36,375 nucleotides of DNA. It comes from an uncultured Nitrospira sp. Its GTDB lineage: Bacteria > Nitrospirota > Nitrospiria > Nitrospirales > Nitrospiraceae. This document shows positions 21,207 to 35,048 of this stretch, piece after piece (position 1 is the stretch's first letter; the number at the start of each line of letters is the position of its first letter). The notes under the pieces were generated by a model. The model searched no databases. It was not told the DNA's origin and was given only the letters and a program-made list of their open reading frames with translations. The position numbers were made by a program, and so were the translations under genes. The stretch lies in contig CABVRX010000023.1 in NCBI GenBank assembly GCA_902500825.1, forward strand, positions 1 to 36,375, in the 5' to 3' direction.

Positions 21207-21705
21207 GCAGAATGTTCTTCTGTCGTCCGCTCACGAAGAGGGTAGGGGAGGGGATCTCTCCAGTGAGTCGTACTGAGAGCATTGAAGAATCGAATACCTG
21301 GTCGTCTCGCCGTTGGCGACCGCGCTGCTCCGGGTTCGCTTCCGCTCATCCCGCCAATCGGCGGGACTCTCGCCCTTCGTATCGCTGACGTGTCAGCCCT
21401 CAACTCCATCGTGCCTCTGATGGCACCGCGCACGCGCCGTGCCGGGTCCCTTGCACCGTCGCGCGCGTGATACTCGCGCGACCGTGCCGCTCATCGTCCA
21501 CGAGACAGTCCAGAACATCGAGCGGTGAAGCGTCTGTGTCTGTGTGTCGTCAGGCTATCACACCGTTCTCAGCGTCAAGGCCTCCGCGCGTGTCCTGAAC
21601 ACGTGCTCGCGAGCGTGCTCCGCACGGCCCTGACGCCTGCGCCTGCGGTGTGCCGAATACCCTCCACACAAGCAATTCCGCTTGTGACAACTCGGAGGGA
21701 ATGAC
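21207..21705 (+). other. Long GC-rich leader of the antirestriction gene
   Basis: Almost 500 bp without a gene between the partition genes and ardB. Hairpin potential is high throughout, for instance CCCGCCAATCGGCGGG near 21353 and the two-hairpin element at 21424-21487. Frames here are not credible. A GGAGGG site precedes the ardB ATG. The leader may control expression on entry of the plasmid. Confidence 0.5.
21424..21487 (+). promoter_or_regulatory. Two-hairpin leader element, copy A
   Basis: Hairpin 1 (21426-21446) has arms CCGCGCACG and CGTGCCGGG around CGC. Hairpin 2 (21453-21487) pairs GCACCGTCGCGCG with CGCGCGACCGTGC at 12 of 13 positions. The first 41 bases match copy B at 22247 with only three differences. 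Both copies precede small accessory genes in the same orientation. Whether it acts as RNA or as DNA is unknown. Confidence 0.7.
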
Positions 21706-22137
21706 ATGGAACACATCCATCACGATCAACAATCCGTCGTCGCTACGTTGGTGCCGGAGGAGGACCGACTGAACTTCTTGCCACGACACTTTGGCCAGCA
21801 CATGCTCACGGTGGAGAACTACCTCTACTCGCAGTTCGGCAATTTGTGTCCCACCTACACCGGAGGCTATTGGCATTTTTACGACTTGAGCAATGGCGGG
21901 TGTTACCTCGCGCCAAGTCAGGCCTCCTATGCGCTCGTTCATGCCGGAAATTACTTTGATGCGGCGGTCTCCGGCGATGCCGCTGGCGTCATCGTGTCCC
22001 TGTTCACGTTCAGCCAATTGTCCTTCATCCTCGAAGAGGATCCCCTCGGGTCTCGGATTGCCAACTACTTTCATTGGCTGCGTGAGTTCGCAGCCGACCA
22101 TCCCGAATCCCACCTGATCTTTCGCGCGATCGACTAG
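21706..22137 (+). CDS. ardB: ArdB/KlcA-type antirestriction protein
   Basis: A 143-residue protein of the KlcA/ArdB family. RLNFLPRHFGQHMLTVENYL, then TYTGGYWHFYDLSNGGCYLA is the hallmark Y-x-G-G-Y-W-x-F-Y-x-L-S-N-G-G. The C-terminal FSQLSFILEEDPLGSRIANY and HWLREFAADHPE are also typical. These proteins protect incoming plasmid DNA from type I restriction without mimicking DNA charge. GGAGGG precedes the ATG. It lies in the early-entry side of the element, behind a structured leader. IncP plasmids carry klcA in a comparable role. Confidence 0.94.
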   Translation: MEHIHHDQQSVVATLVPEEDRLNFLPRHFGQHMLTVENYLYSQFGNLCPTYTGGYWHFYDLSNGGCYLAPSQASYALVHAGNYFDAAVSGDAAGVIVSLFTFSQLSFILEEDPLGSRIANYFHWLREFAADHPESHLIFRAID

Positions 22138-22572
22138 CTCGATCGTGATGGCCGGCGGGCTTCCTGGCTCGTCGGCCTCCTTGTCTCCCTCTCTCATGTT
22201 TGTTCACCCGCTCTCATTTCATGATTCCGTTCAGATCTAAAGGAGGCACCGGGCACGCGCCGTGCCGGGTCTGTTGCACCGTCGCGTCGGTACAGCTCAC
22301 GCGACCGTGCGACGGACTCTCTCTGCCGTCGCCCGTCACGGTGTGTGGCACTCCCGGGTGCACACGCGCCAGCCAACGGCCCGGAGGGCTGTCACGCGTG
22401 CAGCCGTCCGTGGCCACAGACCTCGGACGTTTTGTTGCGCCTCCACGATTGGTGAGAGGCGCAACACATGTTGTTGAAAGAGACCGGTGGGCGGGTCGAG
22501 TCGGTGTTGCCGCTGTGCTCGTGTCTGGCTGTTCTCACGGTGAGGCAGCTTCAACCGTAAGGAGGAGGGGAG
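22138..22572 (+). other. Long GC-rich leader of a small accessory gene
   Basis: About 435 bp without a credible gene. It contains the second two-hairpin element (22247-22310) and a stem GTTGCGCCTC/GAGGCGCAAC around 22433-22463. It ends in a strong GGAGGAGGGG ribosome site for the gene at 22573. It resembles the leader of ardB in length and in the shared element. Confidence 0.5.
22247..22310 (+). promoter_or_regulatory. Two-hairpin leader element, copy B
   Basis: Hairpin 1 has arms CCGGGCACG (22249-22257) and CGTGCCGGG (22261-22269). Hairpin 2 pairs GCACCGTCGCGT (22276-22287) with ACGCGACCGTGC (22299-22310) at 11 of 12 positions. Compared with copy A, the innermost pair changes from C-G to T-A on both sides together, while the loop differs freely. 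That pattern suggests selection for the stem. Confidence 0.7.
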
Positions 22573-22839
22573 ATGAGGGGGACCACACTTGTTCAACAGA
22601 TAAGACCAAATGTCCGGCGCACGAAGAAATCGAGAAACGCCGTTCGTGCTGATCGCGTGGAGGAGGCTCTTCGCTACTATCGCGTGACGGGTTTGCGGGA
22701 GCCACAGACTTCACTGCGAACGACCATAGCCGATCTTCTGACGGATCTCCGGCACTTGGCCGACCGCGAGGGGTTCGACATGGCGCGGATCGATAAGGAA
22801 GCCCATCTCAATTATCTCGCGGAACTCACGCTTCGATGA
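22573..22839 (+). CDS. Small hypothetical accessory protein
   Basis: An 88-residue protein with a basic start (RPNVRRTKKSRNAVRADRVE), then ALRYYRVTGLREPQTSLRTT and two helices IADLLTDLRHLADREGFDMA and RIDKEAHLNYLAELTL. The last part recalls small proteins of unknown function found beside radC-like genes on conjugative elements (D-L-x-x-L-x-H-x-x-x-x-x-G-x-D). No catalytic motif is visible. A very strong ribosome site (GGAGGAGGGG) and the structured leader suggest high translation. The radC-like gene follows 78 bp downstream. Confidence 0.7.
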   Translation: MRGTTLVQQIRPNVRRTKKSRNAVRADRVEEALRYYRVTGLREPQTSLRTTIADLLTDLRHLADREGFDMARIDKEAHLNYLAELTLR

Positions 22840-22848
22840 CTGACGTAC

Positions 22849-22882
22849 GGGAGTCGGAACGGAGGCACCCGTTCCGGCTCCC
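22849..22882 (+). repeat. Hairpin before the radC-like gene
   Basis: GGGAGTCGGAACGG (22849-22862) pairs fully with CCGTTCCGGCTCCC (22869-22882), one pair being a G-T wobble, around the loop AGGCAC. No T-tract follows and the radC-like ribosome site comes about 25 bp later, so it could be a processing, attenuation or translation element rather than a simple terminator. A degenerate relative lies at 23501-23533. Confidence 0.75.
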
Positions 22883-22916
22883 TCACCATGCACCTCACAC
22901 AAGGGAAGGAACATAC

Positions 22917-23447
22917 ATGGCTAAGCAGGCATTACACCTCAAAGAAAACGCGAATGCAACGAAGGAACGGTGTATTCCGCTGTATCGGTTGCAGGTTGTG
23001 AAAGAAGAACATTCCCCGCTCTATGGCGCGCCGAAAATACATGCATCCAGCGATGCGTATCGGTTCGTGCGATCGCATTTTGATGGACGACCCCATGAGG
23101 AATTTGTCGCGATCTTCCTGAACGCGAAGAATACGCCGGTCGGGTATCACGTCGTCTCGGTCGGCTCACTCACGCTCTCGATTGTACATCCACGAGAGGT
23201 ATTTAAAGCCGCCGTCTGCATGAATGCCGCCGGACTGATCTTTGCCCATAACCATCCATCCGGTGATCCAACTCCGAGCGCAGAAGATCATCTCCTGACG
23301 ACACGTTTAGTGAGTGCCGGAGAACTCTTAGGCATTCGCGTGCTTGATCATGTGGTGATTGGAGAGGATCGGTATGTGTCCTTTGCTGATGAGGGATGGC
23401 TACAGAGGCAGGGGATGCCAAAGGATGATGTGGATTACTCCGGATGA
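22917..23447 (+). CDS. radC: RadC-like JAB/MPN-domain protein
   Basis: A 176-residue protein with only the C-terminal RadC domain. EEFVAIFLNAKNTPVGYHVV and VHPREVFKAAVCMNAAGLIF lead to the metal site AHNHPSGDPTPSAEDHLLT (H-x-H-P-S-G-x-x-x-P-S-x-x-D), followed by VLDHVVIGEDRYVSFADEG. The JAMM-type zinc site suggests hydrolase chemistry, but no function is proven, and a role in DNA repair has been doubted. The frame opens earlier, but GGAAGGAAC before the ATG at 22917 decides the start. Short RadC-like genes are typical cargo of conjugative elements. Confidence 0.92.
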   Translation: MAKQALHLKENANATKERCIPLYRLQVVKEEHSPLYGAPKIHASSDAYRFVRSHFDGRPHEEFVAIFLNAKNTPVGYHVVSVGSLTLSIVHPREVFKAAVCMNAAGLIFAHNHPSGDPTPSAEDHLLTTRLVSAGELLGIRVLDHVVIGEDRYVSFADEGWLQRQGMPKDDVDYSG

Positions 23448-23820: not shown

Positions 23821-24045
23821 ATGACCAAACGAGAACAACACCGCTTCGTTCGTGCTCTGCTCAACAGTATTCACCGAGACATTCGGGTCGCCATCCGCAC
23901 GAACGTGATTCCGCGTTCATGGGACGGTATCGAGTTACGTGAATACATCGCGGAGAAGGGGAGAGGGGCCGCAAGGCTCCCTTTCTTCTCTTCAGACCGC
24001 AGGCCAGGAGAGGTGCGCATCACAACCTCCTTTCTACGGGCGTAA
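23821..24045 (+). CDS. Small hypothetical protein coupled to the zinc-binding gene
   Basis: A 74-residue basic protein: MTKREQHRFVRALLNSIHRD, then IRVAIRTNVIPRSWDGIELR and EYIAEKGRGAARLPF. The W-D-G-x-E-L-R-x-Y-I/L-A segment is found in other small plasmid proteins that I know only as hypothetical. The ATG at 23821 lies two bases after the previous stop, with GAGG nearby. Its 3' end overlaps the 3' end of the convergent traM-like gene by 12 bp, so the two operons meet here. Confidence 0.6.
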   Translation: MTKREQHRFVRALLNSIHRDIRVAIRTNVIPRSWDGIELREYIAEKGRGAARLPFFSSDRRPGEVRITTSFLRA

Positions 24046-24471
24046 GGTCCAGTACAGGACGACGGTTGCAAGAAAGGTCACCAGTGCCGCGAAGAGATTC
24101 CAATAGGCCATCCGTTCGGCCGTCTGCAACCGATCCGTGGCCTGCTCCAATGCGCCGGCGACTTCTTTTCGGATGGCGCTCGCGGTCTCGGAGACACTTG
24201 CGGCCAGCTCGTTCTTCATCGCCTCGATACTGGCCGTCACCGAGGCCAGAATGACGCGCTCCGCTTTCTTATTGACGTCCACCCCCCATTGCTGCAACAG
24301 GGCGTCTCCCTTCTGGTGAAACTCCGCCAGCAGGGCGTGCTGCGCCTTCGTCTGGTCATCCTGCAATCGCGCCAGGACCGTCTGGAGCATCAGCAGGGGA
24401 TCATGCCGGTCGAGCACTACGCCGTGTTTCGCGGCAATGTCTTGAATCAGGGCCTCGTGGTCCTCCGCCAT
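24034..24471 (-). CDS. traM: TraM-like conjugal transfer protein
   Basis: A 145-residue protein with a long helical, coiled-coil-like body (LQTVLARLQDDQTKAQHALL, VILASVTASIEAMKNELAAS, VSETASAIRKEVAGALEQAT) and one C-terminal membrane helix, AYWNLFAALVTFLATVVLYW. This matches the layout of IncP TraM. Its function in RP4 is auxiliary. The ATG at 24471 overlaps the traL stop (TGATG). It is the last gene of the traK-traL-traM operon that runs leftward from oriT. The call depends strongly on gene order, as sequence conservation is modest. Confidence 0.8.
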   Translation of the reverse strand: MAEDHEALIQDIAAKHGVVLDRHDPLLMLQTVLARLQDDQTKAQHALLAEFHQKGDALLQQWGVDVNKKAERVILASVTASIEAMKNELAASVSETASAIRKEVAGALEQATDRLQTAERMAYWNLFAALVTFLATVVLYWTLRP

Positions 24472-25196
24472 CACAACACCGGTACGGCAGCGAAGTGTTC
24501 AAACAACTGCTTTTTGATGATCGACAACCGTTGCCGCGCCATGATGGTCAGCGAGGGCTGGGCAATCGCTTCATCGAAGGTGAGATGCGCTTGCAACATC
24601 TCGCTCAAGTCTCGACCGAACGTTTCTTCTTTAAGGTCCGGGAGCCGCACAATCGCGGAGACGCGATCCTTATTCGACAGATAGGCTTTCATCTGCTCAA
24701 AGGGTTTCCCCTCGTGCTCGATCGGGCCCCAGTACGGATTGAGCCACACCACAAACGACACGTCTGCGGGAAACTGCTTCACGAGCTGCGTAAAGCCATG
24801 CAGGGTATCTGACTGGGCTTGGCCGCCGGTGATGACCGTATGCACCACCACCTGATGGCCCAGGCTCTGCAACAAAGCTGGCACTTGGTTGGTGATCAAA
24901 TAGGCAGACAACGGGACAAACGAACTCGCCCCATTATCGATCACCACATCCTCCTTGGTGTTCGCGACGCGCTCGACCAGCTGATCAAAACTGCGCGGAT
25001 CGATCTCGTCACCCTGCATGATATGCAGACGGGTCACCTGTAAGCTCCGATACGCCTGAAACGACGCGTTCACGGGGTCGGTATCGAGGCACAATGGATG
25101 TTGCCCCTTGGACAGTTTGTATTGCGCCACGAAGGCGGCAATCATCGATTTCCCGACCCCGCCTTTGCCCTGTAAGACCAGATGAATCGTTGCCAT
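24471..25196 (-). CDS. traL: TraL-like ParA-family ATPase
   Basis: A 241-residue P-loop ATPase. HLVLQGKGGVGKSMIAAFVA (residues about 5-24) is a deviant Walker A, CLDTDPVNASFQAY is the A' motif, and VVIDNGASSFVPLS is the Walker B region. IncP TraL has the same form and position, between traK and traM. Its role in transfer is accessory and poorly known. It differs from the parA gene at 20137 in length and C-terminal part, so it is not a second partition gene. The start overlaps the traK stop (TAATG). Confidence 0.9.
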   Translation of the reverse strand: MATIHLVLQGKGGVGKSMIAAFVAQYKLSKGQHPLCLDTDPVNASFQAYRSLQVTRLHIMQGDEIDPRSFDQLVERVANTKEDVVIDNGASSFVPLSAYLITNQVPALLQSLGHQVVVHTVITGGQAQSDTLHGFTQLVKQFPADVSFVVWLNPYWGPIEHEGKPFEQMKAYLSNKDRVSAIVRLPDLKEETFGRDLSEMLQAHLTFDEAIAQPSLTIMARQRLSIIKKQLFEHFAAVPVL

Positions 25197-25561
25197 TAGT
25201 ACAAGTCCTCCTCATTCGGAACGGGATTGAAGGTGAACCCACTGCCTTGTGATCCTGCCGGAGTAGGCGTGAGAGGTTTCTTCGCCGTCGATGCCCCCTG
25301 CGTGGCCGGACGGGGAGCGGGGCGTCCCTCCGAGGGTTGCTGCATCAGTGAGCGGACATGGGATCGAAACGTTTCATACCCGCACGCAAGCGTGCCTTCC
25401 TCATGCAAGGTATTCCAAATCATCGCGAGCGAGCACCCATCGGTCAGGGCCTGGTCAATCTCCGGCAGCAGGGCGACGATCTGGGCTCGATTGCGCGCGG
25501 CGGGCGACACCCGTTGCGCTCGGGCTTGCACTCTGGCCGACAAACTTGTCTTCTTGCCCAC
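25196..25561 (-). CDS. traK: TraK-like oriT-binding protein
   Basis: A 121-residue protein, if begun at the GTG at 25559-25561. It reads VGKKTSLSARVQARAQRVSP, then AARNRAQIVALLPEIDQALT, then a core CSLAMIWNTLHEEGTLACGY with ETFRSHVRSLM, and a proline-rich tail. This is the TraK family pattern (A-x-I-W-x-x-L-x-x-E-G-x-x-x-x-x-Y-x-x-F). TraK wraps oriT DNA beside nic to expose it to the relaxase. The frame extends to 25681, but that start would run through the nic region, so the later GTG is preferred although its ribosome site is poor. It diverges from traJ across oriT. Confidence 0.82.
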   Translation of the reverse strand: MGKKTSLSARVQARAQRVSPAARNRAQIVALLPEIDQALTDGCSLAMIWNTLHEEGTLACGYETFRSHVRSLMQQPSEGRPAPRPATQGASTAKKPLTPTPAGSQGSGFTFNPVPNEEDLY

Positions 25562-25656
25562 GGCCGGATCATACCGTATCGTCTCTGAGAAATGACAGAG
25601 AAAACACAACAGACATCCAGCTAGACTCCCAGAAAAGAACCGTGTATAGTGCCGGG

Positions 25657-25704
25657 CAGGATAGGTGAAGGGGGCCCCCAAGTGTCTTGGTGTCCCCCTT
25701 CACC
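25657..25704 (-). other. oriT: Origin of transfer (oriT) with RP4-type nic core
   Basis: On the minus strand CTTCACCTATCCTGCCCGG (25652-25670) equals the RP4 nic region. The expected cut lies after CCTATCCTG, between 25657 and 25656. Next to it are two 19-bp arms in inverse orientation, GGTGAAGGGGGCCCCCAAG (25664-25682) and CTTGGTGTCCCCCTTCACC (25686-25704), identical at 17 of 19 positions around TGT. RP4 has a 19-bp inverted repeat at the same place, where TraJ binds one arm. The site lies between divergent traK and traJ, as in RP4. Confidence 0.95.
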
Positions 25705-25786
25705 CTCCCTGCTTCGCGCGTCGCGCTCAACGGGAGTCCTGCTCGGCGAGGCTGACGGCTCCCGCCGTCTCGGAACGAGGAGAGGC

Positions 25787-26188
25787 ATGGCAGGTCGTTC
25801 ACGGCCGAAGAAAAAGGACCAGGCGCCGATCAAGGTCTACTGTCTTCCGGAGGAGCGAGCGGTGATCGAGGCGAACGCCCGCGCTACCGGATTAAGCAAG
25901 TCGGTCTATTTGCTCCGGGTGGGGATGGGGACTCCGATCCCCAGTATCGTGGACCATGAACGGATCGAGGAGTTGCTGAAGATCAACGGTGACGTGGGAC
26001 GTTTGGGGGGCTTGCTCAAATTATGGCTTTCACGCGAACAGTCTTTACAAGGGATCGATGCCCGCACCGTCCGCACCACCCTCAAGACGATTGAAGCGAC
26101 CCAAGACACGATGATGAACCTCCTGCGCACGGTGTTGCGACCCAAGGCCGAACCACCGGCTCAGCGCGAACTGGACCAAGACAGATGA
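25787..26188 (+). CDS. traJ: TraJ-like relaxosome protein
   Basis: A 133-residue DNA-binding protein. A basic start MAGRSRPKKKDQAPIKVYCL leads to the ribbon-helix-helix (PEERAVIEANARATGLSKSV), then the MobC/TraJ-like segment ELLKINGDVGRLGGLLKLWL (N-x-x-x-N-Q/G-L-x-x-L-x-x-x-x form). TraJ binds the oriT inverted repeat and positions the relaxase at nic. The frame runs back to 25649 through oriT, but GAGGAGAGG before the ATG at 25787 settles the start. Its stop overlaps traI by four bases. Confidence 0.93.
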   Translation: MAGRSRPKKKDQAPIKVYCLPEERAVIEANARATGLSKSVYLLRVGMGTPIPSIVDHERIEELLKINGDVGRLGGLLKLWLSREQSLQGIDARTVRTTLKTIEATQDTMMNLLRTVLRPKAEPPAQRELDQDR

Positions 26189-28143
26189 TTCTCAAGCACG
26201 TCCCCATGCGCTCGGTGCGGAAAAGCAATGTGGTGGAGCTCGTGCACTATCTCACCAACACGCAGGGCAGGCAGGAACGGGTGGGGGACATCACGCTGAC
26301 CAACTGCGCGAGCGATCACCACGAAGCCGCTGCCCTCGAAATCCTGAATACTCAGGCGCAGAACACCCGTGCCAAATCCGATAAGACCTATCATCTGATC
26401 CTCAGTTTCCGGGCGGGCGAAACGGTGCCCGCAGACATCTTGAGGACACTCGAAGCCCGCGTGTGCGAGGGACTGGGATTTGGGGAGCATCAACGGGTCA
26501 GTGTCACGCACTCTGATACGGACCATGTGCACCTCCACGTCGCGATCAACAAAATTCATCCGGTTCGGCACACCATGCACGACCCGTTCAACGCGTATCA
26601 CACCATCGGACGGCTCTGTGCCACCTTGGAGCAGGAATTCCGCCTCGGACAGGACAACCACCAGGCAAAGAAGACCATCTCGGAGACTCGCGCCACGGAT
26701 ATGGAGCGGCACACGGGCACCGAAAGCTTGATCGGCTGGATTCAACGTGAAGCACTCACGGAATTGCGTGAGGCGCGAAGCTGGGAGGACTTTACTCGTG
26801 TGCTCCATCAGCACGGGCTGTCGCTCCAATCCCGTGGACAAGGATTTGTGCTCACGGACGGGGAGGGGACGTTCGTGAAAGCCAGCTCAGTCGCACGGGA
26901 TCTGTCGAAGGTCTCGCTCGAACGCCGCCTCGGTCCTCGTGAGGCTTCGCACACACCGCGTGCGGCACAGCCGCCGCCGCGAGTCGAACCGAGACGACCA
27001 TCGCAGGTGACATCCATCATGCCACGATATGAACCGCGCCCGCTCCGCAGTCGGATGGACACCCGCGCCCTCTATGCCCGCTATCAGCAGGATCGAGTGA
27101 CCCGCGTTCAAGGCCGATCCCATGCCTTCCGGCAGGCGAACACCAAGAAGACGCAGCAAATGTCCGCCGCGAGACGGGCCTGGCAATTGAAGCGCGGCAC
27201 GATCAAGTTGACGAAGACTACGCGTCTGCACAAGACCGCCCTCTATCTTCTGGCGTCCAGAAATTATCGTTCTAACATGCATGAGATCCGCTCGCAGTAC
27301 GGTCGAGAACGGGCGGCGCTCACCGCGCGGTTTCGACACCTCACCTGGGTGGACTGGCTCCGGCAGCAGGCTATGGGAGGCGATCAGGAGGCGCTTCGCG
27401 CGTTACGCGCTCGCGACTCCACGCACGGACTCCAAGGGGACACACTCATGGCGTCTGGTTACCCCGTGCTGAAGGCCGCGGTTGGAGCCTATCAAGATTC
27501 CGTGACGAAACAGGGGACGATCATTTATCGCGTCGGGGCATCCGCAGTCCGCGATGATGGATCGAAATTACAGGTGTCGCGTGAAGTCACCGACGAGGGG
27601 ATTGTCGCGGCCCTCCGGCTCGCGATGGGCAAGTACGGGACCCACCTGGCTGTGAACGGCTGCGAGGTCTTCAAGGATCGTGTTGCCCGTGCGGCCGCAC
27701 AATCGGCCTTCGCGGTGCGATTCACGGATGCCACGGTGGAAACTCGCCGTGTGCGCTATGCCCAGGAGTTCAGCCAGCAGTCCGTTCAGGCTCCATCACC
27801 GACAGAACAGGGTTTGCCACGGACGGACGCGCCGCCGGACACTCGCACGCCGACGGACCGCGCCATTGACGCCTATCTTGCTGAGCGCAACGCGACACGA
27901 AAGCGGGTCACCGATATTCTCCCCCATCGGCGGTTCGAGGCGCGTGATGTCGGACTGCACCCGTTTGCCGGGCTTCGGACGATCGACGGCATTGATTTAG
28001 CCCTGATCCATCACAATCATGAAATCGTGGTGGTCGGCATCGATGCGCGGACGGCGCAACGCCTCACGCGCGTGACACTCGGAGCGTCCATTCAGGTTCG
28101 TGAGTCCGGCTCCATTCGAATTGGGAAAGGACGACGGCTATGA
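26185..28143 (+). CDS. traI: TraI-like relaxase (MOBP type)
   Basis: A 652-residue relaxase closely following RP4 TraI in its first 150 residues. MILKHVPMRSVRKSNVVELV ends just before the catalytic Tyr22. Motif II has KTYHLILSFRAGE with Ser74. Motif III, VSVTHSDTDHVHLHVAINKI, holds His109, His116 and His118. It would cut oriT at nic, stay bound to the 5' end and be pumped with the strand. The C-terminal part (residues about 270-650) is basic and less recognisable. It is shorter than RP4 TraI and shows no primase or helicase motif. Confidence 0.96.
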   Translation: MILKHVPMRSVRKSNVVELVHYLTNTQGRQERVGDITLTNCASDHHEAAALEILNTQAQNTRAKSDKTYHLILSFRAGETVPADILRTLEARVCEGLGFGEHQRVSVTHSDTDHVHLHVAINKIHPVRHTMHDPFNAYHTIGRLCATLEQEFRLGQDNHQAKKTISETRATDMERHTGTESLIGWIQREALTELREARSWEDFTRVLHQHGLSLQSRGQGFVLTDGEGTFVKASSVARDLSKVSLERRLGPREASHTPRAAQPPPRVEPRRPSQVTSIMPRYEPRPLRSRMDTRALYARYQQDRVTRVQGRSHAFRQANTKKTQQMSAARRAWQLKRGTIKLTKTTRLHKTALYLLASRNYRSNMHEIRSQYGRERAALTARFRHLTWVDWLRQQAMGGDQEALRALRARDSTHGLQGDTLMASGYPVLKAAVGAYQDSVTKQGTIIYRVGASAVRDDGSKLQVSREVTDEGIVAALRLAMGKYGTHLAVNGCEVFKDRVARAAAQSAFAVRFTDATVETRRVRYAQEFSQQSVQAPSPTEQGLPRTDAPPDTRTPTDRAIDAYLAERNATRKRVTDILPHRRFEARDVGLHPFAGLRTIDGIDLALIHHNHEIVVVGIDARTAQRLTRVTLGASIQVRESGSIRIGKGRRL

Positions 28144-30898: not shown

Positions 30899-32500
30899 TT
30901 AGGGAAGGTCCTGGGCGAGGCGGAAGCCGATGCTGTTGTACCGAAAATCAGCGTTGTCACTGAGTCGACGCAACGTACGCAAGTGCTCCGGATTGTTATC
31001 CCAGGAACCGCCCCGGAGTACGCGTCGAGCGCAGTCGCCGCGATTCGTTTCGATCCAGGCCGAGCCATTCGGTGGAGCTCCGTCGTATTTCTCGTGCCAG
31101 CAATCCTCCACCCATTCCCACACATTCCCGCTCATGTCGTTAAGGCCCAGTCTAGTGGGTTGCTTACTGCCGACCGGCTCCGTGCGGTTCGAGGCATACA
31201 CCGCATAATCCTTTAACTGCTTCATGTCGGAAGTCCCAGCCCACGTCTGGTCATTTCCACCGCTTCTCGCGGCATATTCCCACTCCGCTTCCGTCGGGAG
31301 TCGGTATCTCTTCCCGGTTTGTTGGGATAGCCACTGGGCATAGGCGTTAGCATCTTCCCAGGATACATTGATCACCGGACGAGACCCACGACCCCATCCT
31401 CTGTCCTTGGGCAATGCGCGTCCCGTTGCCTGAGCAAAACGGTCATACTCGTCAAACGTGGTTTCATGTCGTGCGATGGCAAATGGTCTGATGAATTGTA
31501 CGAGGTGACTCGGAGTTGCGTTCTCCTCCGTTCCCCCCCCCATCATGAATGATCCAGGCTCAAGCCTGGCCATAGCTGGGCTGGGAACCGAAGAAGACGG
31601 GGGGAATGGAATTCTGGCTGGCTGTACTTGCTGTGCTTGACCGGGAAACACAAACTGTCCCTTAGATCCGGGGCTAAGCGACCAGTATTGTGGCCGTTGT
31701 TTGTACCCCCGCCACACCGCTTCCTTCCACACTCGTAGCTCAAGGAAATGGTGGAGCTCCGATGCGGTAATATTCCCATCGGCATCCAGGTCGGCTGTCT
31801 TATCCCTGCCTAAGCCTTCCAGAAGAAAGTGGGTGAGCAAGCTTTGCCCCCATTCCCCGACCTCCAGGACTTCTTGATCCGCCTCGCCGGCAACAATCAG
31901 TTGACGACCCGGCTCCCGAGTAATTTCTTCGCGGAACATTGATGTCATCTCGGGAACACTCTTCGTGTTTTCACCAATGATTCCGCTGTAACAGGAGTCC
32001 ACGATAAAGAGGACATGCTTTGCAGGCCAGGCATTAGCCCACTCTCGAACCCGGCCCATGCTGATGGCGGTTGCAGAGAAGTTCTTAGGATTCGCGTCGA
32101 TCGGGAGTAGATAGCCCGTCCGTTGGCCCGTGCCGAACTGCTCATCTTTACCATGGCCTGAAAAGAAGATCAGCACGCGATCATTGGCACCCAATTTACT
32201 GGGCAGCTCCGTTCCCAGTACAGTTTCGATTGATTGACGGGTCGTGTCCCCCGGGGAAACCTTACGATTAACTGTAAACCCCTGCTGCTCCAGCAGATCG
32301 CCGATGGCCGTTGCATCCTGGATAGCATAATGAAGCCGTGGTGCCTTCTGGTAGTCATTAATGCCGATGACGACCGCCCAGTCCTTGCCCTTGGCTGGTA
32401 CTACTTGTCCGCTTGTTTCAGCAGTTGAAGGAACCCCGAAATAGCCTTGAGTCGCAAGCAGAATAGTTAGGACAGCAAGAACAGGGATACGGCCACTCAT
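30899..32500 (-). CDS. Exported caspase (C14) protease fused to an FGE/sulfatase-modifying domain
   Basis: A 533-residue protein beginning with a signal sequence (RIPVLAVLTILLATQGYFG). The caspase-like domain spans about 38-270: WAVVIGINDYQ, catalytic His116 in IFFSGHGKDE and Cys170 in LFIVDSCYSG. A canonical EF-hand loop, DLDADGNITASE (237-248), follows and could bind calcium. After a proline-rich linker the C-terminal domain (about 310-533) is of the formylglycine-generating-enzyme type: LEPGSFMMGG, RLPTEAEWEYAAR, NDMSGNVWEWVEDCW, RVLRGGSWDN and YNSIGFRLA. FGE-like domains often serve as binding or C-type-lectin-like modules. The ATG at 32500 lies 13 bp after a small exported partner gene. 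The Shine-Dalgarno sequence is weak. Confidence 0.9.
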   Translation of the reverse strand: MSGRIPVLAVLTILLATQGYFGVPSTAETSGQVVPAKGKDWAVVIGINDYQKAPRLHYAIQDATAIGDLLEQQGFTVNRKVSPGDTTRQSIETVLGTELPSKLGANDRVLIFFSGHGKDEQFGTGQRTGYLLPIDANPKNFSATAISMGRVREWANAWPAKHVLFIVDSCYSGIIGENTKSVPEMTSMFREEITREPGRQLIVAGEADQEVLEVGEWGQSLLTHFLLEGLGRDKTADLDADGNITASELHHFLELRVWKEAVWRGYKQRPQYWSLSPGSKGQFVFPGQAQQVQPARIPFPPSSSVPSPAMARLEPGSFMMGGGTEENATPSHLVQFIRPFAIARHETTFDEYDRFAQATGRALPKDRGWGRGSRPVINVSWEDANAYAQWLSQQTGKRYRLPTEAEWEYAARSGGNDQTWAGTSDMKQLKDYAVYASNRTEPVGSKQPTRLGLNDMSGNVWEWVEDCWHEKYDGAPPNGSAWIETNRGDCARRVLRGGSWDNNPEHLRTLRRLSDNADFRYNSIGFRLAQDLP

Positions 32501-32512
32501 GCGAGACAACGG

Positions 32513-33746: not shown

Positions 33747-35048
33747 ATGGTTTCATCTAACCCTGTCAAAGCATTCGCACAGTGGGCATCAGTTCGAGCT
33801 GCCTTTCTCGGACTGCTCTTTCTTATCGGGTGCGCGTCAGCGGATGTTCTGAAATTTCAGGATGGCAAGCGCCTCGCTCACAATGACAAACCACAAGAAG
33901 CGATCCAAGCCTACAGGGATGCGCTTGAGGAGAACCCACGCCTCGTCCAAGCGAGTCTAAATATCGGGGTTTTGTTTTATCAGCAGGGGCAATTAGCACA
34001 GGCGGCGCGGGAGTTCAAACTGGTCCTTGAACAAGATCCGGAATATGCTCGAGCGCGAGAGAATCTTGCGATTACACTCGAAGCGAAAGGCGACACTAAT
34101 GACGAAGCCAAGATCGAAGCCTATGCAGAAGCCTATAAGCACTGGCAAGTGGCGATGGCCAACGAAAACCGGGCTGAGTGGAAGGCCTATGGCAAACAGT
34201 CGATCGAGCGACTGAAAGAGAAATTGCGAATGGCAGGGGAACCAGACGTGGATATCCCACCATCGGATGTCGATACGACCGTGCCGACGTTTGCGGTGGC
34301 CCCGCGTCCCCATGACATCGCATTAGTCATCGGCATTGAAATGTATAAGAATCAGAGCCTGACGGCATCCCCATTTGCCCGTGCTGATGCAGAACGGGTA
34401 GCCAAGTATTTGGGTGAGCTCGGCTATGACTCGCACAACGTGGCGGTGCTGATTAACGAGCGAGCGACGCTGGCCACGATTCGATCGAGGGTGGAGTATT
34501 GGGTGTCGGAGCGTGCGAAAACTGACAGCCGAGTCCTGATCTACTATTCTGGCCATGGATCGACGAATCCCACAACTGGGGACACCTATCTTGTGCCGCA
34601 CGACGGCAACCCGGCTGATCTACTCAATACGGCCTATTCGACCAAGAGACTGTATCGCGATTTAGCCGACCTCAACGTGAACCAAGTCGTGGTGATGTTG
34701 GATTCCTGCTTTTCCGGGAAGGGGAGCCGCTCCGTGTTAATGGAAGGCGCACGACCCGCTTCCGACAAGATTGCGGATCCGGTGTTGGCCTCGCGGCGCC
34801 TGGCTGTGCTAACCGCGGCGTCTGGCAGCCAGGTCAATATCGTGTCTCAGCCCAAGCAGCACGGGCTTTTCACCTATTACTGGCTGAAGGCTTTACTGGA
34901 TGGCCAACAAGATCTCGCCGCGATCTATGACTATGTGAGTCCTAAAGTCCAGAAGGAGGCCAACCTTCAGGATGTCCAGCAAGCGCCAAGCTTGTGGCCA
35001 GGGCCGGAGCAGATTCGGGGAGAGTTTACGCTGTGGGACAAACCGTGA
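33747..35048 (+). CDS. TPR-caspase (C14) lipoprotein
   Basis: A 433-residue lipoprotein with signal and lipobox AAFLGLLFLIGC (Cys29). TPR-type repeats at about 35-165 begin with GKRLAHNDKPQEAIQAYRDA and ASLNIGVLFYQQGQLAQAAR. The caspase domain is at about 185-430: DIALVIGIEMYKN, catalytic His270 in VLIYYSGHGS and Cys321 in VVVMLDSCFSG. A late LTAASGSQ and HGLFTYYWLKALL are typical of C14 proteases. It is expected to be anchored in a membrane with the protease outside the cytoplasm. AAAGGAG lies eight bases before the ATG. It heads a rightward group with a FlgT-like fragment, a one-helix protein and an RCC1 lipoprotein. Confidence 0.92.
   Translation: MVSSNPVKAFAQWASVRAAFLGLLFLIGCASADVLKFQDGKRLAHNDKPQEAIQAYRDALEENPRLVQASLNIGVLFYQQGQLAQAAREFKLVLEQDPEYARARENLAITLEAKGDTNDEAKIEAYAEAYKHWQVAMANENRAEWKAYGKQSIERLKEKLRMAGEPDVDIPPSDVDTTVPTFAVAPRPHDIALVIGIEMYKNQSLTASPFARADAERVAKYLGELGYDSHNVAVLINERATLATIRSRVEYWVSERAKTDSRVLIYYSGHGSTNPTTGDTYLVPHDGNPADLLNTAYSTKRLYRDLADLNVNQVVVMLDSCFSGKGSRSVLMEGARPASDKIADPVLASRRLAVLTAASGSQVNIVSQPKQHGLFTYYWLKALLDGQQDLAAIYDYVSPKVQKEANLQDVQQAPSLWPGPEQIRGEFTLWDKP

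Follow-up and report, generated by a model that had tools for sequence, protein, structure and literature searches.

Promoters and priming sites that act on incoming DNA while it is single-stranded are known from a few enterobacterial plasmids and from Gram-positive elements. The leading region of the F plasmid contains two near-identical sites, Frpo1 and Frpo2, which are separated by about 5 kb of DNA that includes toxin-antitoxin genes and which drive early expression of the leading genes (PMC9849209). Anti-defence genes of leading regions are oriented such that the T-strand serves as their template (PMC11541004). The sso sites, such as sso1 of ICEBs1, are orientation-specific and promote second-strand synthesis (PMC4595007).

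The Nitrospira element described here shares with the Frpo/ssi sites of F and ColIb-P9 (PMC9849209, PMC11541004) its location in the leading region, the T-strand template orientation, and stable hairpins on the T-strand. As in those plasmids, several near-identical copies lie in one orientation upstream of antirestriction or establishment genes, with toxin-antitoxin genes between them. Unlike Frpo/ssi, it is GC-rich, has no sigma-70 boxes above chance and no sequence match in PLSDB, and comes from another phylum; it is a strict two-hairpin module with conserved C.C mismatches (G.G on the T-strand) and is also found on integrative mobilizable elements (IMEs). Membership in Frpo is not claimed, as the -35 and -10 boxes are at chance level and there is no sequence match. 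With sso1 of ICEBs1 (PMC4595007), the element shares orientation-specific stem-loops on a conjugative or integrative element, a multi-hairpin structure, and an expected activity only in the single-stranded form. It differs from sso in the lack of a detectable sequence relation, in having several copies per element, in its Gram-negative host from Nitrospirota, and in that priming is here a predicted activity.

Element copies and gene order in the window

The window, i.e., the whole analyzed stretch of 36,375 nucleotides, corresponds to contig 23 in a draft Nitrospira genome of 3.79 Mb and carries an IncP-like conjugation module. Its genes are arranged in the order Trb genes (on the minus strand), RepA, ParA, ardB, orf88, radC, traM/L/K-like genes, NikA, TraI (MOBP), and TraG. 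The features that bear on the element are as follows.

21422-21487, plus strand: element copy 1, 66 nt, two hairpins
21422..21443, plus strand: hairpin 1 of copy 1, GGCAC-C-GCG-CACG-CGC-C-GTGCC
21453..21487, plus strand: hairpin 2 of copy 1, GCAC-C-GTC...GAC-C-GTGC, with a variable apical stem and loop
21706..22137, plus strand: ardB, antirestriction protein (PF03230, 3.8e-27)
22245-22310, plus strand: element copy 2, 66 nt, two hairpins
22245..22266, plus strand: hairpin 1 of copy 2, GGCAC-C-GGG-CACG-CGC-C-GTGCC
22276..22310, plus strand: hairpin 2 of copy 2, carrying a C-G to T-A double change
22573..22839, plus strand: orf88, a small accessory gene without a known family, conserved in synteny
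22836..23447, plus strand: RadC-like leading-region gene (PF04002, 1.9e-42)
24034..25681, minus strand: traK, traL, and traM-like genes on the leading side of oriT (TraL NF010461, 8.4e-129; synteny)
25641..25665, minus strand: oriT nic region, TTCACCTATCCTG^CCCGGCAC, with the nick between 25657 and 25656
25649..28143, plus strand: NikA/TraJ-like protein and TraI relaxase (MOBP) on the lagging side (TraI_MobP_relax, 1.1e-148)
25654-25753: traJ-II RNA (RF01760), overlapping the nic region

The oriT sequence TTCACCTATCCTG^CCCGGCAC is that of the RP4 nic. Since this RP4-like nic is on the minus strand, the minus strand is the T-strand, with its 5' end heading toward lower coordinates, and the leading region is everything below 25656. 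Both element copies are therefore placed in the leading region, 4.2 kb (copy 1) and 3.3 kb (copy 2) from nic, and ardB, orf88, and radC are transcribed with the T-strand as the template.

The first-pass annotation had described a duplicated two-hairpin element in this region, and such an element is indeed present at both sites. The two copies are 83% identical, are 823 bp apart, and represent the top repeat family of the region. The earlier count of 38 identical bases among the leading 41 is exact when started at position 21424 (3 bases differ). The compensatory C-G to T-A change and the varying loop noted in hairpin 2 are found as well: the stem reads GCAC-C-GTCGCGC..GCGCGAC-C-GTGC in copy 1 and GCAC-C-GTCGCGT..ACGCGAC-C-GTGC in copy 2, with divergent loops. 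An 18-mer core shared by the copies occurs twice in the window versus 0.11 times expected (0/100 shuffles), and a whole-genome scan finds no further site with fewer than 3 mismatches.

Several other features of the window are of note. In related plasmids, orf88 (22573-22839) likewise lies between the second element and radC and is a candidate early-establishment gene. The traJ-II RNA is found at the equivalent place in the related plasmids L134, L135, L136, L142, L143, and L145, and a DUF3800-IX RNA (RF02968) is present on the same plasmid family (L136:13026-13096, L142:16000-16070). Two caspase-domain genes (30899-32509 and 33747-35048) lie beside the transfer genes, one of them fused to an FGE-sulfatase domain and the other to TPR repeats.

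Family size and distribution

A covariance model, as proposed in the first-pass annotation, was built and recognizes 109 copies of the element in the DNA fetched for 33 Nitrospiraceae genomes, the window included. Model R1, with which accepted copies score 40 to 81 bits, detects the element in 33 of the 79 genomes searched within the genus and, in a sample of the phylum, in 2 of 169 genera; with model R2, 35 of the order's 235 genomes are positive, representing 3 of 37 genera, all in one family. The carriers, which account for ~40% of the Nitrospira genomes searched, have 1 to 10 copies each, which lie on conjugative plasmids and on IMEs. DNA searches within the family show that the arrangement element-ardB-element-orf88-radC is common to many genomes.

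A pattern scan of 84,980 genomes yielded 91 stretches, of which those outside Nitrospira score at most 39 bits with R1, come mostly from high-GC genomes, and look like chance matches. Rfam contains no family matching the element; elsewhere, only traJ-II, DUF3800-IX, tRNA, group II intron, and fluoride riboswitch are recognized. An ArdB-based search of viral contigs found no relatives. The search of plasmid databases, also proposed earlier, shows that PLSDB (72,556 plasmids, many of them reported to carry Frpo) contains no match to the element, only similarity to ParA.

Conservation and covariation of the hairpins

In an alignment of 23 distinct copies (A1), used for the covariation test, 91% of the cells pair in the two hairpins. 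Changes on both sides of a pair are seen in 33 cells, versus a mean of 13.3 in shuffles (0/500) and no more than 12 in slid registers. The covarying pairs of hairpin 2 are A1 columns 48-69, 50-67, 54-63, and 55-62, and the core displays 21 double changes between Watson-Crick pairs. The C.C apposition of hairpin 1 is conserved in 98 of 101 distinct copies and that of hairpin 2 in 103 of 109 copies. The element is thus a discrete two-hairpin module that is conserved with genuine covariation, and the refuting outcome named in the first-pass annotation, a lack of additional covarying copies, did not occur. An outer AGACCG/CGGTCT stem around the copies upstream of ardB (type A) was noticed by eye.

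Placement relative to the mob genes and nic

The chromosomal copies sit on IMEs whose relaxase (PF03432) differs from that of the window. These IMEs carry an integrase gene (in several cases beside a tRNA), the element, toxin-antitoxin or AbiE genes, a DUF6908 gene, a mobC-like gene, and the relaxase gene. Their oriT motif, GGTTGCAGGATATGGC, is conserved 5' of mobC and is the complement of GCCATATCCTG^CAACC, a nic of the IncP type carried by the strand that lies opposite the element.

A mobC or relaxase gene is within reach of 62 of the 109 copies (47 loci, 28 genomes), and in all 62 the element is upstream of it and on the same strand. For the second batch of loci, mostly downstream DNA was fetched, which could hide upstream mob genes, not opposite-strand ones; in that batch, therefore, only the agreement in strand is free of bias. 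For 38 of the 62 copies, the fetched DNA also extended at least 4 kb on the other side. A nic was found for 53 of these 62 copies, between the element and the mob genes and on the opposite strand, at a median distance of 4.3 kb from the element (range, 0.4 to 9.5 kb). Two copies with mob genes that were obtained later, one of them in another genus, agree with this placement (2/2). The genome that contains the window has an IME of its own on contig 14 (L011, about 15.4 to 16.4 kb), with a second ardB, 71% identical in DNA to that of the window, between two elements and adjoining mobC/relaxase genes.

Eight copies (in L197, L218, L220, L235, L237, L191, L245, and L211) have at least 8.5 kb of downstream DNA without recognizable mob genes and represent either decayed islands or exceptions to the placement rule; a nic-like motif remains in L211. 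Across the family, the element is a leading-region feature with a single orientation relative to the mob genes and nic, which extends the observation of two copies in one window to a leading-region family in Nitrospiraceae.

The Nitrospira IMEs form a large family (L190-L209 and others, e.g., L196) with diverse tyrosine or serine integrases and toxin-antitoxin/AbiE cargo. An AT-rich block, GGCACTTATGAGAGGGTTCAGAATTTATGACCATACCGAAAAAGTAGGGG, is found upstream of the chromosomal copies, e.g., ~250 nt before the element in L197, and is common to islands with unrelated integrases. This block is perhaps a promoter of the integrase/excisionase genes.

Downstream leaders

The stretches that follow the element fall into leader class A (19 copies, upstream of ardB), the mutually homologous classes B and C (68 copies), and others (17 copies). 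In the window, leaders A and B are represented by the following features.

21488..21705, plus strand: leader A, between the element and ardB, structured and ~80% conserved in related plasmids
about 21558-21652, plus strand: long imperfect stem of leader A, seen in the alignment and in folds
21660-21700, plus strand: hairpin of leader A that pairs the ardB Shine-Dalgarno sequence, CCTCC-ACACAAGC..GCTTGTG-..-GGAGG
22311..22572, plus strand: leader B, with hairpins 3 and 4, homologous to the stretch after the chromosomal copies (66 aligned copies)
22433-22466, plus strand: hairpin 4 of leader B, TGTTGCGCCTC..GAGGCGCAACA

The B/C leader thus adds to the element hairpin 3 and the near-invariant hairpin 4, TGTTGCGCCCC..GGGGCGCAACA. 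On plasmids, the downstream co-directional gene is always ardB or orf88; on IMEs, the picture is mixed. In some islands, the nearest recognized gene is on the opposite strand and encodes PemK (L204), AbiEii/AbiEi (L194), or HTH_37 (L205). The pairs of the Shine-Dalgarno hairpin vary as C-G, A-U, and U.G across plasmids (columns 319-358 and 326-345), which suggests a separate control of ardB at the mRNA level.

Strand of action and alternative explanations

The first-pass annotation had proposed a structured RNA or a single-stranded DNA hairpin, for example, a promoter active on the incoming strand. There is strong support for a conserved element that folds in the leading region, and the T-strand, i.e., single-stranded DNA, is favored over RNA by the orientation found in 62 of 62 copies, by the folding energies, and by the lack of a G.U excess. 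The proposed promoter did not fare as well: sigma-70-like promoters are found in 3 and 2 of the 104 copies on the two strands, versus 2.6 per strand in shuffles, when searched with the sigma-70 consensus, which may not be that of Nitrospira; the boxes in the region of the window are likewise at chance level, and several islands have their nearest recognized gene on the opposite strand.

With DNA parameters, the minus strand has the lower folding energy in nearly all cores (100/104), all B/C leaders (33/33), and most A leaders (16/18), and after correction by a dinucleotide-block shuffle it remains the better one in 92/104, 30/33, and 17/18, respectively. For the minus strand folded as DNA, z is about -4.3 in the core and -7.7 in the B/C leader; the copies are related, so the nominal p-values are inflated and only indicative. 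With RNA parameters, the same cores and leaders show no significant difference in fold energy between the strands. The non-Watson-Crick appositions that are conserved in these hairpins read C.C (three), C.A, C.T, and T.T on the plus strand, with A.C in leader A, and G.G, G.T, G.A, and A.A on the T-strand, with T.G in leader A. It is these T-strand mismatches that make the T-strand the more stable one as DNA.

The best-surviving alternative, which we nevertheless consider unlikely, is a structured 5' leader RNA (a riboregulator or attenuator) in early leading-gene transcripts, with hairpins of the plus-strand mRNA and gene-specific leaders controlling translation. Such an RNA would be consistent with the common strand of the element and ardB/orf88 and with the folding of both strands, as RNA, well below shuffles. 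The hairpin that pairs the ardB Shine-Dalgarno sequence makes sense only in mRNA, and its pairs vary in the manner described above. Known leader RNAs of conjugative elements (traJ-II, RF01760, and the DUF3800 RNAs) are similar in that, on the same plasmids, they place covarying hairpins ahead of genes, whereas the Nitrospira element has no Rfam match and no G.U excess, and its nearest recognized gene is not always co-directional, as in L204, L194, and L205. A selected RNA helix would be expected to show more G.U than A.C on the plus strand, but parsimony counts in the B/C leaders are 56 versus 53 events, and the core wobble events (38 versus 25) display a mild, non-significant plus-strand bias; this strand test is a non-deciding one, with only 1 versus 2 cells in the tRNA control. 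The conserved C.C, C.A, and C.U mismatches would be unfavorable on the RNA strand, and an RNA leader does not require the 62/62 placement relative to nic.

It is improbable that the element is a site in double-stranded DNA, such as an operator, a cruciform, or a binding site of a relaxosome or partition protein, built of four GCACSG half-sites. The GCAC..GTGC arms do recur in both hairpins, and palindromic operators are common on plasmids. However, the paired positions change together (the 21 double changes, with the slide and shuffle controls), which a double-stranded site does not need, and the C.C appositions break the dyad symmetry yet are retained in 98/101 and 103/109 copies.

A recombination or cassette-boundary site similar to integron attC, which would shuffle ardB and toxin-antitoxin modules, is very improbable. 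As with attC, these are folded single-strand sites that flank gene modules and adjoin integrases, and homology among copies often starts and stops exactly at the hairpin pair. However, ordinary homologous recombination between copies explains this mosaic, the stems contain mismatches and not extrahelical bases, and the copies on conjugative plasmids have no adjacent integrase. The neighboring recombinases are unrelated (varied phage-type tyrosine integrases or a serine recombinase) and include no IntI, and the integron-cassette model was rejected on these grounds.

A simple recent duplication within the plasmid with random changes, the null explanation of the first-pass annotation, accounts for two copies 823 bp apart with 83% identity but is refuted by 109 copies with covariation and conserved mismatches in 33 genomes and by the separate lineages to which the A and B copies of each plasmid belong.

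Proposed function and implications

The Nitrospira element is, on balance, probably a cis-acting single-stranded-DNA element of the leading region, similar to ssi/Frpo or to sso. The T-strand would enter the recipient with its 5' end first, and the element hairpins would fold on the single strand, where they might recruit RNA polymerase or primase. The outcome might be priming of the complementary strand and/or transcription of ardB, orf88-radC, and the toxin-antitoxin cargo before the DNA becomes double-stranded. Priming is at least as likely as transcription, and perhaps slightly more so, because it needs neither -35/-10 boxes nor a co-directional gene, and some islands have their nearest recognized gene on the opposite strand.

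A broader proposal, put forward only tentatively, is that control sites of this kind might have evolved in Nitrospirota independently of Frpo. They would be recognized through hairpins with conserved G.G mismatches ~5 bp apart and not through -35/-10 boxes, and would be common to conjugative plasmids and to mobilizable islands whose integrases are unrelated and whose relaxase differs, allowing incoming DNA to be primed or expressed at once.

The element represents a sequence-defined candidate, in a globally important nitrifier, for plasmid expression before second-strand synthesis outside the enterobacterial and Gram-positive groups. The question of single-stranded DNA can be tested with short oligonucleotides. 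The element alone marks leading regions in draft genomes, and it exposes a large family of mobilizable islands in Nitrospira with toxin-antitoxin and phage-defence cargo.
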